Assembly: GCA_014729085.1 (NCBI GenBank)
Contig: WJKM01000012.1
Location: forward strand, 1-59,546
Direction: 5' to 3'
DNA length: 59,546 nucleotides
Source: Candidatus Dojkabacteria bacterium
GTDB taxonomy: Bacteria; Patescibacteriota; Dojkabacteria; B142; WJKM01
Part shown: positions 1 to 59,546 of the stretch, piece after piece
Position numbering within the stretch: the first letter of the stretch is position 1
Layout of the letters: the number at the start of each line of letters is the position of its first letter
Notes under the pieces: model-generated
Told to the model about the DNA's origin: nothing
The model's database searches: none
The model's input: only the letters and a program-made list of their open reading frames with translations
Program-made: the position numbers and the translations under genes

Positions 1-923
1 GCAATCATATGTTGAATATGGCTTGGAATTGCTTTCTTACTGTGTTTATATTCCTGAAAAATTGTTCCAAAAGACTTTCCGTTCTCTATACCAATCCTCA
101 TCGCTTCATAAAGTTTTCTGAATCTTGGAAATGTTGCAGACTCGGCCAGTGTATCCAGAGCTAATAAAATAGATATACCAGAACTTAATAATGTACTAAA
201 AACATAAGCAAATCGCGCAAGCTCAACAGCTAGAATAAGTTTTTTAAGAACAGGTATTCTTATTAAAATTGCCTGACCAATATGTTTTGTTTTCTTATTA
301 ACAAAGATTATATAAAAAAGAAATATCAATAAAGTAAAAAATACAGGAACAGCAATAAATCCATAGTCTGAAAGAAACTGTCCTACTGCTAATAAAATAC
401 GGGTGGGCAAGGGGAGTTCCAAATTTAAGGATTCGAAAACCATACCAAGCTTTGGTAATATAAACCATGAAACCCCAGTCCCCACGACAATCATTACACT
501 CATAATTAGTAGGGGATACATCATTGCAGAACGAATTTTTGATCCGAAGATTCTTTGTTTTTCCTGTTGGTCAACTACTACTTTTAAGTTTTCTGGAAGC
601 TTTCCAGTCTGTTCACCAATTTTTATTAATGAAATTGTGGAGTCTTTAAAAAGTCCTGTCTTCTCAAGAGTCTTCCAAATAGGTGATCCTGATTTAATTT
701 CATAAATCACTCCTTCCATTAGTCTCCTCATTGGTTTTGATTTCATACCTGTCTTAATAGCTTCAAACGCATAAACAATATCCATGTCAGTTGCAAAAAG
801 CATTGCTAGATTTTCCATGAAGTATTGCTTCTCTTTTCCTAAACCAATTCTTTCAAGTGGAGATAATGGCTTAACATGCTTTATATTTCCTCCTGAATTT
901 TCATCTTGGGACATTCCAACCAT
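1..923 (-). CDS. pilC: Type II secretion system F / PilC-like inner-membrane protein (partial, 3' end beyond left edge)
   Basis: Not in the ORF track because it is open at the edge. Reverse strand from ATG at 923 reads MVGMSQDENSGGNIKHVKPLSPLERIGLGKEKQYFMENLAMLFATDMDIVYAFEAIKTGMKSKPMRRLM...GEQTGKLPENLKVVVDQQEKQ...KIRSAMMYPLLIMSVMIVVGTGVSWFILPKL, matching GspF/PilC organisation. Confidence 0.9.
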   Translation of the reverse strand, partial: MVGMSQDENSGGNIKHVKPLSPLERIGLGKEKQYFMENLAMLFATDMDIVYAFEAIKTGMKSKPMRRLMEGVIYEIKSGSPIWKTLEKTGLFKDSTISLIKIGEQTGKLPENLKVVVDQQEKQRIFGSKIRSAMMYPLLIMSVMIVVGTGVSWFILPKLGMVFESLNLELPLPTRILLAVGQFLSDYGFIAVPVFFTLLIFLFYIIFVNKKTKHIGQAILIRIPVLKKLILAVELARFAYVFSTLLSSGISILLALDTLAESATFPRFRKLYEAMRIGIENGKSFGTIFQEYKHSKKAIPSHIQHMI

Positions 924-5223: not shown

Positions 5224-5875
5224 GGCCACACTGCTTACTAACAGACAAAAAGAAGTCCTCGATATTATCGCAAAATATTTTAAACAACAAGATCAAGCAC
5301 CGACTTTAAATGAACTTAAAAAAGAATTAAATATAGGTACCAAAAGGGGAGTTGTAAATCACCTAACAGCCCTAGAGAAAAAAGGTTTTATTAGAAGATC
5401 AAGTAAACCAAGAGGCATTCAGATTATAAATCAAGAGGATAGTGATTTTCTTTTTATAAATATACCGATACTAGGATATGCCAACGCTGGAGAACCTCTT
5501 GCTGAAGCAGAGGAAGAATTTATCGGAGAAATTAAAATAGATAAAAATTTGATTCCTAAAAACAAAAATCTCTTCAGCATAATAATAAAAGGAGACTCTA
5601 TGAACAAAAGAAAAGTAGGAAAAATCCGGTTAGAAAACGGAAAAATTGCAGTAATAGAACGAAATGCACATGTAGAAAACAATGATGTCATTCTAGCTAT
5701 TGTAGAAAATCAGGCTACAATAAAAACATATAAGAAATCCGATAATGCTGTAATTTTATATCCCGAATCTACAAATAAAATACATAAACCTATTTACCTC
5801 AAGCCCGATTCGCAATTTATTATTAATGGAAAAGTAATCAAAATACTGGAAAATCCTGCATATCGAAATTTATAA
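5222..5875 (+). CDS. lexA: LexA-family repressor (HTH plus S24 peptidase)
   Basis: LTNRQKEVLDIIAKYFKQQDQAPTLNELKKEL winged HTH; Ala-Gly cleavage-site-like YANAGEP; GDSMN serine and ATIKTY lysine motifs. Confidence 0.88.
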   Translation: MATLLTNRQKEVLDIIAKYFKQQDQAPTLNELKKELNIGTKRGVVNHLTALEKKGFIRRSSKPRGIQIINQEDSDFLFINIPILGYANAGEPLAEAEEEFIGEIKIDKNLIPKNKNLFSIIIKGDSMNKRKVGKIRLENGKIAVIERNAHVENNDVILAIVENQATIKTYKKSDNAVILYPESTNKIHKPIYLKPDSQFIINGKVIKILENPAYRNL

Positions 5876-5893
5876 ACTAATTTATTTCCACTA

Positions 5894-6304
5894 ATGACTC
5901 AAACAAACAGAAACAACAATTTAATTCCTTTAGCTTTTGAACCTGTACATGCAGGTTTTCCTAGTCCAGCCGATGATTTTCTAGATAAAAGTATTGATAT
6001 GAATGAATTTCTTATTAAACATCCTGCTGCAACTTATTTTGTAAGGGCAGAAGGAAATTCAATGATTAACTCTGGTATCTTTTCTGGAGATATTTTAGTG
6101 GTAGATAAATCCCTGGAGCCTTCAAATAATTCAATTGTAATAGCCTCCATTGATGGAGAATTTACTGTCAAAAAATTCGTCAAAAAAAATCATAGTATCT
6201 TTCTAAAACCTTCTAATGGAAAATTTCGAAAAATACAAATCACCAAAGACTGTGAATTTGAAATTTGGGGAGTAGTAACTTTTGTAATACACCAAATAAA
6301 ATAG
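5894..6304 (+). CDS. umuD: UmuD-like S24 peptidase
   Basis: 136 aa; VHAGFPSPADD cleavage-site motif closely resembling UmuD; EGNSMINSGIFSGDILVVDKS and GEFTVKKF catalytic motifs. Confidence 0.85.
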   Translation: MTQTNRNNNLIPLAFEPVHAGFPSPADDFLDKSIDMNEFLIKHPAATYFVRAEGNSMINSGIFSGDILVVDKSLEPSNNSIVIASIDGEFTVKKFVKKNHSIFLKPSNGKFRKIQITKDCEFEIWGVVTFVIHQIK

Positions 6305-6312
6305 ATAGTTAG

Positions 6313-6633
6313 TTAGTCTGATGTAATTCGTGTAAGCTGAATGCCTTCCCCCCAATTAGCCAATCTACTTTTTAATACCCCGCTTAGGGGCGGAAGATTC
6401 AAAAGGGGACAATTACCACAATCGTGCTGATTTCTTCTATCATCAACACATCCAACTTCAAAATCCTGGACTTGATTTTCACCTGGACCTATTTGCGTAT
6501 CTGGAACCAATGGCATAACCTTACATGGACCAAGAGGGGTATTTAACGCTTGCCAAATATTATTTGTCGTTAATTGTGTAATGTGCACCAATTCTTGTTC
6601 CATACTCAACAATTTCCACAAATTAAACAACAA
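6313..6633 (-). CDS. Small Cys-containing hypothetical protein
   Basis: 106 aa ORF with GCVDDRRNQHDCGNCPLL; start may be the internal ATG at 6603. No family recognised. Confidence 0.5.
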   Translation of the reverse strand: MLFNLWKLLSMEQELVHITQLTTNNIWQALNTPLGPCKVMPLVPDTQIGPGENQVQDFEVGCVDDRRNQHDCGNCPLLNLPPLSGVLKSRLANWGEGIQLTRITSD

Positions 6634-6742
6634 ACATAAATATATAGAAAATGCCTAATATATACAAGGATTGGTAATATATCGAATATACAAGAATTAC
6701 AGAAAAATGACCGAAATATTCTAAATCCAGGATATTTGTTTT

Positions 6743-7558
6743 TTAAGAAAACGATTTAACACCGTAAGCACCGATACTCCAGAAAAGCATCCATTTTAAA
6801 AAACCAATGAACAGAGGCATAAAACAGCATAAAGTAGAAATCCTAAAACCCGAATAGATAAATAAGTAATCAGCAAAAATTCTCAGAAAGAATGTTAGGT
6901 AAAATACTGGTATAGATGCATATAAACTAATGATCAAACTTTGGCGGAATGAATGTTCTTTTTTCATTACTGTAAAAATAAAAGTTCCTATAAGAGTAAT
7001 TCCTAAAATAGGTATAAGTCTTATAAAAAAATTGAATACAAATATGAAAATAGGGGAGGCTATAAGAATTAAAATCCCGAATTTTTGAATTAACGATACA
7101 AAAAGCTCTTGATTGATTTTAATCCTTTCTATTTCTAGCTCTCGCAGTAAATCCTCATAGGAAATACTTATATCTTCAATTTCGTCCCTTGACCGAATTA
7201 GCATATATTCTTTTGTAAGTAAAACCCCCTCTCTGTAATCTGAGGGAATTTCATCTAAATTTGCAGTTGTATCTAAAGCGAAATACTTATCCTGTTTAAC
7301 AAAAACAATAGGCATATCTTCGGAGTCAATAAATAAGCCCTGTTTGTCTATTATAATTTCGGGAAAATTCTTGATGTTTTGTGGTAAACGGATTAAATCC
7401 TGTCCAAACGAAAAAATAAAATAAAAACTGGAAATTACAGAAACTAAGAGAGTGAATAAGAAATAAATTTTCAAAGCCTTACGAATTCCTTTAGATACAG
7501 CTTCTTTATAAAAATTTGGAGAATAAACTGTTAGACCTAAACTTTTTGCAAAAAACAT
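6743..7558 (-). CDS. DUF1189-like multi-pass membrane protein
   Basis: 271 aa; N-terminal TM, extracellular-type domain (IIIDKQGLFIDSEDMPIVFVKQDKYFALDTTANLDEI), then several C-terminal TMs. Confidence 0.6.
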   Translation of the reverse strand: MFFAKSLGLTVYSPNFYKEAVSKGIRKALKIYFLFTLLVSVISSFYFIFSFGQDLIRLPQNIKNFPEIIIDKQGLFIDSEDMPIVFVKQDKYFALDTTANLDEIPSDYREGVLLTKEYMLIRSRDEIEDISISYEDLLRELEIERIKINQELFVSLIQKFGILILIASPIFIFVFNFFIRLIPILGITLIGTFIFTVMKKEHSFRQSLIISLYASIPVFYLTFFLRIFADYLFIYSGFRISTLCCFMPLFIGFLKWMLFWSIGAYGVKSFS

Positions 7559-57312: not shown

Positions 57313-57984
57313 ATGTATAAAATATTTCAGAAATCCTTGTTTAAAACAATAGTGCTGGTTTTGTTTCTATTAACTATAACATCCAATGCTCTTGCTCAAA
57401 CAAGCTCAGGTTCTCTATCTTTCAATCCATCTTCAGTAACAATTACCGAAAATGGCACAGCTACTCTCGATGTGGTTTATACCGGAGTCGAAATAACTGC
57501 TGCAAAAATTAAAATCGATGTTGGGCCTGGTCTACAAATTACTGACTTTGCAGAAAATGATGAACTAATGGTAATAATAAACGATCCTGATAACGGAGAA
57601 ATTCATCTTGGGAAACTAACAGAAGGTAATATTGCTTCTGGAACAACTCTGTTAACCATGACAATCCAAGCTACAGGTTGTGGAGAAGGGGATATTACTT
57701 TCGACCAGGAAGAGGTCTTAATTCCGGACGTAACGCTAAGTTTTACTGATGCAACCTATACAATCGACTGTGATGGTACTGACCCAACAACGCCTCCAAA
57801 CGGTACAACAGGACCTACACCAACAACTCTTCCCAAAACTGGAATTCTCGATGAGAATTTTGGGAAAATACTGATGGCAAGTTTTATCGTTTCTGCTGGA
57901 ATTGCTCTCGGTTACTATGCAAAGATATCAAAACAAACAGATATTAATTCAACAAATCTAGATTTAATAATTGAATACAGCTAA
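57313..57984 (+). CDS. Secreted surface protein, cohesin-like domain plus LPKTG and TM
   Basis: Signal peptide ending NALAQ; SGSLSFNPSSVTITENGTATLDVVYTGVEITAAKIKIDVGPG...; Pro/Thr linker; LPKTG then hydrophobic KILMASFIVSAGIALGYYAKI. Confidence 0.75.
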   Translation: MYKIFQKSLFKTIVLVLFLLTITSNALAQTSSGSLSFNPSSVTITENGTATLDVVYTGVEITAAKIKIDVGPGLQITDFAENDELMVIINDPDNGEIHLGKLTEGNIASGTTLLTMTIQATGCGEGDITFDQEEVLIPDVTLSFTDATYTIDCDGTDPTTPPNGTTGPTPTTLPKTGILDENFGKILMASFIVSAGIALGYYAKISKQTDINSTNLDLIIEYS

Positions 57985-58061: not shown

Positions 58062-58478
58062 ATGAAAAACAAAAAAGGATTTTCGCTTGTTGAGTTGCTT
58101 GTTGCTATGGCAATTATCGCTGTGCTTATCTCAATAGCAGCATACGGTATTCAAATTGTTCAAAGAAATGCAAGAAATACCAAAAGAAGAAAAGTTGTAC
58201 AAGATCTACAATTAACTATTGCAGACTTCCAGACTAATAATTTCTCTTATCCTACTTCTTTAAGCTTAAGTGGTTGTACAGTCCAATTGGATGGAAATAA
58301 TACAGCACAGGAAATTAGAGGTTTCAATTCCTGCAGTGTCTATGCAACAGGGGGTGAATGTGCAGTAAGTACAGAAGAAACAAATGAAAATGCAATTCAA
58401 ATCTGCTATGATCCAACTAATTTATTCGTTGGCGTAGTGTTAGAAGGAAATACTACTGGATACGTCTCAAGTGTGTAA
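58062..58478 (+). CDS. Pseudopilin (short form)
   Basis: KKGFSLVELLVAMAIIAVLISIAAYGIQIVQRNARNTKRRK; 138 aa. Confidence 0.9.
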   Translation: MKNKKGFSLVELLVAMAIIAVLISIAAYGIQIVQRNARNTKRRKVVQDLQLTIADFQTNNFSYPTSLSLSGCTVQLDGNNTAQEIRGFNSCSVYATGGECAVSTEETNENAIQICYDPTNLFVGVVLEGNTTGYVSSV

Positions 58479-58500
58479 AAATCGGAATTAATAATAAAAA

Positions 58501-58532
58501 AGAAAACGAGTTATACTCGTTTTCTTTTTTTT
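58501..58532 (+). terminator. Intrinsic terminator
   Basis: AGAAAACGAG-TTATA-CTCGTTTTCT perfect 10 bp stem followed by a T-tract. Confidence 0.88.
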
Positions 58533-58596
58533 ACGCAATTAACATCATTTTCTTTTCCTGCTATATTATTTCTGTATAAATTATTATAAAAATTCT

Positions 58597-59546
58597 ATGA
58601 ATAATAAACTTATTGTAACGGAGTTTAATAAAGATTATGTGCTTAGAAGAGCTTTTTCTTTAGTAGAACTTTTAATAGTTATGGGTGTTATTGCAGTCTT
58701 GCTTTCAATAACAGCCTATGGACTTTCTGTATTGAATCGAAATAGTAGAAATAGTCAAAGAGTAGAAGCAATAAATCAATTAAAAATTGAAGTAGAAAAA
58801 TACTATCTAGATAATGGACGCTACCCGGATACATCTGACTTCCAGGAATCAGGAGACGAAATCCAATTATGTGATGGTAACGACTGTACAAGTATTGAAA
58901 GTAAAGGAGGTATGTTAAATCCTGGAAGCACTACAGATAAACATACTACAGCTTTTTGCTATAACAAAGGAACCAGCTCTTATAGCCTTGGTGTTCAAAT
59001 AGAGGGCTCAGGAGATTGGAGAAATGTCGGGACAGACTCCGCAGGATGTAACGATTCGGATCTAATCCTTGCAAGCACTCCACCTCAACCAACACTCCCA
59101 CAAGGTGGAGGGGGTTGTTTCTTAGCTGGCACACATATCTCTCTGTCTGACGGATCTTCCAAGCTTATCGAAAATATTGAACCCGGTGATTCAGTCTTAA
59201 GTTTCAATCATACTAACAACTCACTTGACACAAGCACTGTCGGATTCGTCCAATCTTATGAAGTCGATGGTTATTTCGTTATTAACAACACCCTAAAACT
59301 CACAAACAATCATCCTCTTTACATTAAAAAACAAAATGGATATGTAGGGTGGGGAGCCATTGATCCATCCGCTGCTAAAAAAGAACATAACTTAAGACTT
59401 GAAACTGTTGAACAAATTAATGTTGGAGATCATTTATTTACTTCTGAGGATCAATGGAAAGAAATTACATCTATCGACTCTGTTAATGAAAAAGCTCTGG
59501 TTTACAATCTTGAAGGTTTATCTCCCTTCCAAAATTATTTTGCCGA
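58597..59546 (+). CDS. Pseudopilin with C-terminal Hint (hedgehog/intein) domain (partial, runs off right edge)
   Basis: Not in the ORF track because it has no stop in the window. Translation MNNKLIVTEFNKDYVLRRAFSLVELLIVMGVIAVLLSITAYGLSVLNRNSRNSQRVEAINQLKIEVEKYYLDNGRYPD...PQPTLPQGGGGCFLAGTHISLSDGSSKLIENIEPGDSVLSFN...LKLTNNHPLYI...VGDHLFTSEDQWKEITSIDSVNEKALVYNLEGLSPFQNYFA. Confidence 0.88.
   Translation, partial: MNNKLIVTEFNKDYVLRRAFSLVELLIVMGVIAVLLSITAYGLSVLNRNSRNSQRVEAINQLKIEVEKYYLDNGRYPDTSDFQESGDEIQLCDGNDCTSIESKGGMLNPGSTTDKHTTAFCYNKGTSSYSLGVQIEGSGDWRNVGTDSAGCNDSDLILASTPPQPTLPQGGGGCFLAGTHISLSDGSSKLIENIEPGDSVLSFNHTNNSLDTSTVGFVQSYEVDGYFVINNTLKLTNNHPLYIKKQNGYVGWGAIDPSAAKKEHNLRLETVEQINVGDHLFTSEDQWKEITSIDSVNEKALVYNLEGLSPFQNYFA

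Follow-up and report, generated by a model that had tools for sequence, protein, structure and literature searches.

A type IV pilin joined to a BIL-type Hint domain in a Dojkabacteria genome

Bacterial intein-like (BIL) domains are Hint domains without +1 nucleophiles that mainly cleave (PMC7664689), and the Tetrahymena domain BIL2 is reported to make isopeptide bonds, dispensing a ubiquitin-like domain without ATP (PMC8616854). Zinc dependence is also reported for BIL2. In the portion of the polymorphic-toxin survey available to us, HINT domains accompany export by type II, V and VII secretion systems (T2SS, T5SS, T7SS) and by TcdB/TcaC, and the words pilin and pilus are absent from that portion (PMC3482391). 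The settings in which Hint and BIL domains have been discussed are toxins, adhesins and ciliate polyubiquitin, and no relevant paper on a Hint or intein carried by a pilin, pseudopilin or prepilin was found among the titles and abstracts of PMC, outside which most subscription papers lie. Here we describe a BIL-type Hint whose carrier, a type IV pilin, is of a new class. The gene lies at the right end of contig WJKM01000012.1 of the tiny, uncultured Candidatus Dojkabacteria bacterium (GCA_014729085.1), whose 59,546 nucleotides (positions 1 to 59,546, forward strand) form the window of this analysis. Within its genome, which measures 1.6 Mb and is 95% complete, the window is contig C9 (G, C and L numbers are our handles for genomes, contigs and loci).

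A reading made from the sequence alone had proposed the fusion from an open reading frame (ORF) that meets no stop before the window end at 59546. Over its final 141 bp C9 matches the end of contig C16, from the same genome, without a single difference, and joining the two, with this overlap as the sole basis of the join, continues the frame as ...NYFAEEILAHNVVKSE and a stop (near the stop, the joined frame reads ...VYNLEGLSPFQNYFAEEILAHNVVKSE). The completed protein has 328 amino acids and is intact; its domains follow in the order prepilin leader, pilin, Pro/Gly linker, Hint, stop. The C-terminal HN (...ILAHN), read across the overlap, is followed by five residues (VVKSE) and the stop. We looked for a frameshift separating the pilin from the Hint and found none up to the stop, and the joined ORF contains neither a homing endonuclease nor a domain downstream of the Hint. 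The fusion is therefore confirmed as real and complete, with the nucleophile Cys174 at the codon first proposed for it. The parts of the gene are as follows.

58597-59544, plus strand: pilin-Hint ORF, amino acids 1-316 of 328; the final 12 codons and the stop are on C16
58597..58653, plus strand: prepilin leader of 19 amino acids, cleavage predicted between A19 and F20SLVE (TIGR02532, PF07963)
58654..59049, plus strand: pilin/pseudopilin domain, predicted to form a long N-terminal helix (amino acids 12-73) and beta elements
59050..59115, plus strand: Pro/Gly linker ...STPPQPTLPQGGGG, predicted disordered
59116..59546, plus strand: BIL-type Hint, amino acids 174-323, finished on C16 by EEILAHN, then VVKSE and stop
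59116..59118, plus strand: catalytic Cys174, block A, Hint position 1
59302..59313, plus strand: block B, T236-N-N-H239

That the gene is an assembly artefact or a pseudogene is hardly credible. It does span a contig break, and a shared 141-bp end taken alone is where assemblers break at branches, fixed-length overlaps of contig ends being typical of k-mer assembly breaks. Against this, pilin and Hint stand together on C9 up to amino acid 316 with the frame intact, only the ends of C9 and C16 share the sequence within the bin (as judged from search hits), and the same architecture recurs in independent genomes.

The N-terminal part carries a class III signal and a hydrophobic N-helix (AFSLVELL, with E24 as Glu5 at +5), and the prepilin motif is matched above cut-off by both TIGR02532 (23.2 bits, cut-off 16.3) and PF07963 (21.8 bits, cut-off 21.2). 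The predicted cleavage site has Ala at -1 in place of Gly, and a GTG at codon 15 is an alternative start that would give a 5-aa leader. The AlphaFold model, built without the last 12 residues, shows the long pilin helix, a disordered linker (pLDDT low at amino acids 139-151 and 154-170) and a Hint with pLDDT of about 97 across most of its length. A poly-Gly run precedes Cys174, as it does in several other pilin-Hints.

The identity of the C-terminal domain was assessed by profile and by fold. With the single sequence, Pfam matches to Hint remained sub-threshold (PF01079, 28.3 bits, cut-off 29.7); matches to AXH (ataxin) were also below cut-off and were taken as fold similarity only. A five-sequence profile searched against the PDB gave Tetrahymena BIL2 as the best match (2.6e-18), then a Clostridium BIL (2.6e-13), and Foldseek likewise ranked BIL2 (E 1.3e-10, TMt about 0.8) and BIL first, followed by inteins, with Hedgehog 1at0 far lower (1.8e-4). 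Profile and structure thus give unambiguous Hint matches, and the model and sequence comparisons support bacterial intein-like domains as the closest relatives. The domain has the Hint fold without a homing endonuclease and measures 150 residues, in keeping with the small size noticed at the outset. The sequence-only reading had left the type as Hog, BIL or pre-toxin; the BIL affinity held, and the lack of a sterol-recognition-like tail and the far weaker fold match speak against the Hedgehog alternative. Matches in the phage database were merely intein-like at 26-41% identity, so that we see no sign of phage origin.

The catalytic residues point the same way. Among 112 aligned Hints, the Cys at position 1 is present in 111 and the terminal HN in 107, both residues having been partly selected by the genome search pattern. 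Independent of that pattern are block B, with the His in 112/112 and the Thr in 108/112, and the +1 residue. K is the commonest residue after HN (64), the remainder being E, D, A, R, N, Q or isolated others; C, S and T never occur there, and the window protein has Val. Such a combination corresponds to the BIL pattern, from which cleavage or aminolysis rather than splicing would be predicted (PMC7664689, PMC5874633). One could instead suppose that the Hint has lost its chemistry and serves on the surface as a stable but inert module, either adhesive or a spacer. The lack of a substrate or C-terminal partner would fit such a module, as would one Omnitrophota pilin-Hint without HN, yet Cys1, the block-B T..H and HN are kept here and in nearly all relatives even at 30-45% identity, and we consider the inert module unlikely.

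With only five residues after HN, the protein can neither splice nor release a toxin from its downstream side. A canonical intein is ruled out (no C, S or T at +1 and no C-extein, the protein ending VVKSE and stop), as is Hedgehog/Hog sterol transfer (no sterol-recognition region, five residues after the Hint); a Hedgehog-like transfer in the mechanistic sense is possible. Extension to the right thus supplied the HN for which the sequence-only reading had suggested looking, with no toxin or adhesin domain beyond it, and its suggestion of payload release is not supported for this gene. Several relatives belong to the Pfam family PT-HINT, and in some Omnitrophota pilin-Hints roughly 90-125 amino acids lie past the Hint; both facts would suit a pre-toxin releaser of the polymorphic-toxin kind, with its payload downstream. 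Here, however, VVKSE and the stop are followed on C16 by a hairpin with a T-tract (a palindrome, though its scan score is on the opposite strand), the gene beyond is convergent, and neither a toxin domain past the Hint nor an adjoining immunity-like gene was found. Unless the contig join is wrong, the pre-toxin reading is largely refuted for this gene, and we hold it to be very improbable.

The architecture is not confined to this genome. At least 10 prepilin-Hint genes occur in six genomes of Omnitrophota:

G431 (L079): one prepilin-Hint
G617 (L143, two; L144, with two Hints in tandem): three prepilin-Hints
G1049 (L248, two; L249): three, orthologous to the G617 trio by position and sequence
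G1079 (L253), G610 (L250) and G1097 (L251): one prepilin-Hint each

All three G617/G1049 orthologue pairs keep the catalytic Cys and the block-B His. Closest to the window layout are L253, L250 and L251, with pilin, Pro/Gly linker, Hint and then 7 to about 20 further residues; where about 90-125 amino acids follow the Hint, they partly resemble the last strands of a pilin. One Omnitrophota pilin seems to have its Hint inserted, and outside the Hint its AlphaFold model is of low confidence. In a Hint tree of few columns and many open forks, the approximately unbiased (AU) test rejects a single clade for the window pilin-Hint and six from Omnitrophota (p 8e-5); a single origin of all pilin-Hints is thereby rejected, and the fusion arose more than once. 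Hints close to the one described here occur in 3/86 genomes of the window genome's class and 26/380 of the phylum, mostly in large proteins, and in 33/381 genomes of another Patescibacteria class. No second Patescibacteria prepilin-Hint was seen in the samples searched, of whose small ORFs a part was inspected. A parallel is seen in Magasanikbacteria, where T4SS_pilin (PF18895) proteins carry the Hint last and end HNKQ or HNKI before the stop (L044, L047; L043 is partial).

One Omnitrophota genome, G431, shows how such genes may be put together. Its pilin-Hint gene shares with a 3149-aa ORF, otherwise unrelated, a 381-bp cassette at 98.7% identity, which begins at about the Cys1 codon and stops at the HN codons; beyond the cassette the two genes show no similarity:

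L079:5997-6377 and L080:6003-6383: the two copies of the Hint cassette, with ends at Cys1 and HN

Two pilins of the same genome (L079:3956-5017 and 5485-6753), in a PilB-PilC-pilin cluster, have cores that are 98% identical and different C-terminal modules after the same Gly-Ser linker, the module being the Hint in one of them. The cassette and the module-swapped pilin show recent modular assembly, in which the Hint boundaries are the cassette ends. A mainly selfish, mobile BIL cassette behind a duplicated pilin, whose self-cleavage just spares its host, would account for the near-identical stretch in two unrelated genes and for pilin-Hints not being one clade. It sits poorly with three pilin-Hints that are orthologous between two Omnitrophota genomes, with the single clade that Hints on alpha-2-macroglobulin (A2M) proteins form across many Patescibacteria lineages, and with the fact that no mobility enzyme was seen; we think it quite unlikely. 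That the fusion is found in two phyla, and that two Omnitrophota genomes have three such fusions in common, argues for a function that is used.

Related Hints were also noted on other proteins. The A2M-Hints are found by motif in about 33 Patescibacteria loci (e.g., L017-L026, L028, L082, L097, L105, L108, L191-L195) and lie between the bait-region domain PF07703 and PF00207, that is, in the bait-region position. The clade includes a copy from the window's own genome (C8, L013:5346-10907, minus strand). No paper on an A2M-Hint was found in the literature search. The idea that the Hint replaces a lost A2M thioester fails as a rule, CxEQ being present in 7/27 A2M-Hints. The same Dojkabacteria genome encodes a 1089-aa surface protein (C21, L005:7618-10887, minus strand) with an N-terminal PF16656/fn3-like domain, a Hint 45% identical to that of the pilin, and a Cys-rich region, in this order. 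Tandem Hint arrays within one ORF were seen in the Thermoplasmata archaeon of L045 (G674:C62, C122), with nine matches in a 2927-aa ORF.

Around the pilin-Hint gene, the window holds the following further features.

58062..58478, plus strand: tandem paralogous pilin without Hint, 138 amino acids, recognised by sequence and pilin models
58496..58530, no strand assigned: palindromic hairpin in the gap separating the pilin genes, bearing A/T tracts and scored by the scan as terminator-like on the minus strand
58539..58567, plus strand: sigma-70-like promoter TTAACA-17-TATATT, a consensus match only (10/12, TG before the -10), about 30 nt 5' of the ATG
3..923, minus strand: PilC-like gene (T2SSF), cut off by the contig edge
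944..2758, minus strand: PilB-like ATPase (T2SSE, MshEN), by domain matches

The upstream pilin is 32% identical to the pilin part over 131 amino acids and has no Hint, so that one member of a tandem pilin pair seems to have gained a Hint. Type IV pilus machinery is present in the genome, with PilB/PilT-like T2SSE proteins (one PilB-like in the window and an additional T2SSE match on C11), T2SSF and a prepilin peptidase (Peptidase_A24). Proteins ending in LPKTG or LPTTG plus a hydrophobic stretch, resembling sortase substrates, are encoded near the pilins (57313-57984) and on C16 (L004:6840-7835).

Taken together, we consider it probable that the gene encodes an exported type IV pilin or pseudopilin with a terminal BIL-type Hint whose thioester is resolved externally, so that the pilin is trimmed or attached. 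Outside the membrane, the Hint would turn the Gly173-Cys174 peptide bond into a thioester. Because no C-terminal partner exists, the thioester at the pilin C-terminal Gly would have to be resolved by an outside nucleophile: attack by water or a thiol would trim the pilin of its Hint, and attack by an amine would join the Gly to another protein or surface molecule. Cyclisation of Asn323 may shed the five-residue tail, and the prepilin peptidase would act independently between A19 and F20. Self-cleavage or ligation by the Hint is what we infer from its residues; incorporation of the pilin into a pilus is predicted, and covalent adhesion through it would follow only by inference. None of the outcomes that the sequence-only reading had named as speaking against it came about. 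Several points nonetheless weigh against the mechanism. The conservation tally for Cys1 and HN is partly circular, as the search pattern held those residues; within its own class the pilin fusion is found only in the window genome, among the three with close Hints; a G617 pilin-Hint (L143:4714-5958) has lost HN; and if the Hint is merely cut off, the benefit is not evident.

That the same fusion has arisen separately in Omnitrophota suggests that some bacteria may trim or attach pilus subunits by a built-in, energy-free reaction. The pilin-Hint offers a directly testable route to covalent pilus trimming or anchoring in Patescibacteria, with a bearing on host attachment, and together with the A2M-Hints it points to a wider use of Hint chemistry at the patescibacterial cell surface.

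Among known systems, the Omnitrophota prepilin-Hints (L079, L143, L144, L248, L249, L250, L251, L253) share the prepilin, a Pro/Gly/Ser linker, the Hint and mostly a short tail with the window protein, but the six tested are rejected as one clade with it, some continue for about 90-125 amino acids past the Hint, and one has tandem Hints. Polymorphic-toxin HINT peptidases belong to the same superfamily and ride on secreted multidomain carriers (PMC3482391), whereas the window gene has no toxin or immunity gene. In Hedgehog, the Hog domain is likewise a C-terminal Hint that activates the preceding Gly-Cys bond for an outside nucleophile; the window protein differs in having no sterol-recognition region, in keeping HN and in its much weaker fold match. 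With BIL domains such as that of Clostridium thermocellum (PDB 2lwy) it has in common the mini-Hint size, Cys1, TxxH, HN, the absence of C, S or T at +1 and a surface or secreted carrier, but here the Hint comes last in the protein and is borne by a type IV pilin. The best match in both profile and fold is BIL2 of the BUBL1 polyubiquitin locus (PDB 6tmm, 6y75), which is also placed behind an N-terminal partner; unlike the window Hint it is eukaryotic, its partner is ubiquitin-like rather than a pilin, and it has Ubl domains on both sides. Conjugation chemistry is reported for BIL2, whereas the window protein is known from sequence and model. As a tentative extension, which we regard as less than probable, the Hints on pilins, and here also those on A2M and the other surface protein, may be ATP-free conjugation devices that pass a Gly thioester to amines of the cell's own envelope or of a partner cell. 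If so, pilin-Hint conjugation would be a bacterial counterpart of ubiquitin dispensing by BIL2 and an enzyme-independent alternative to sortase.
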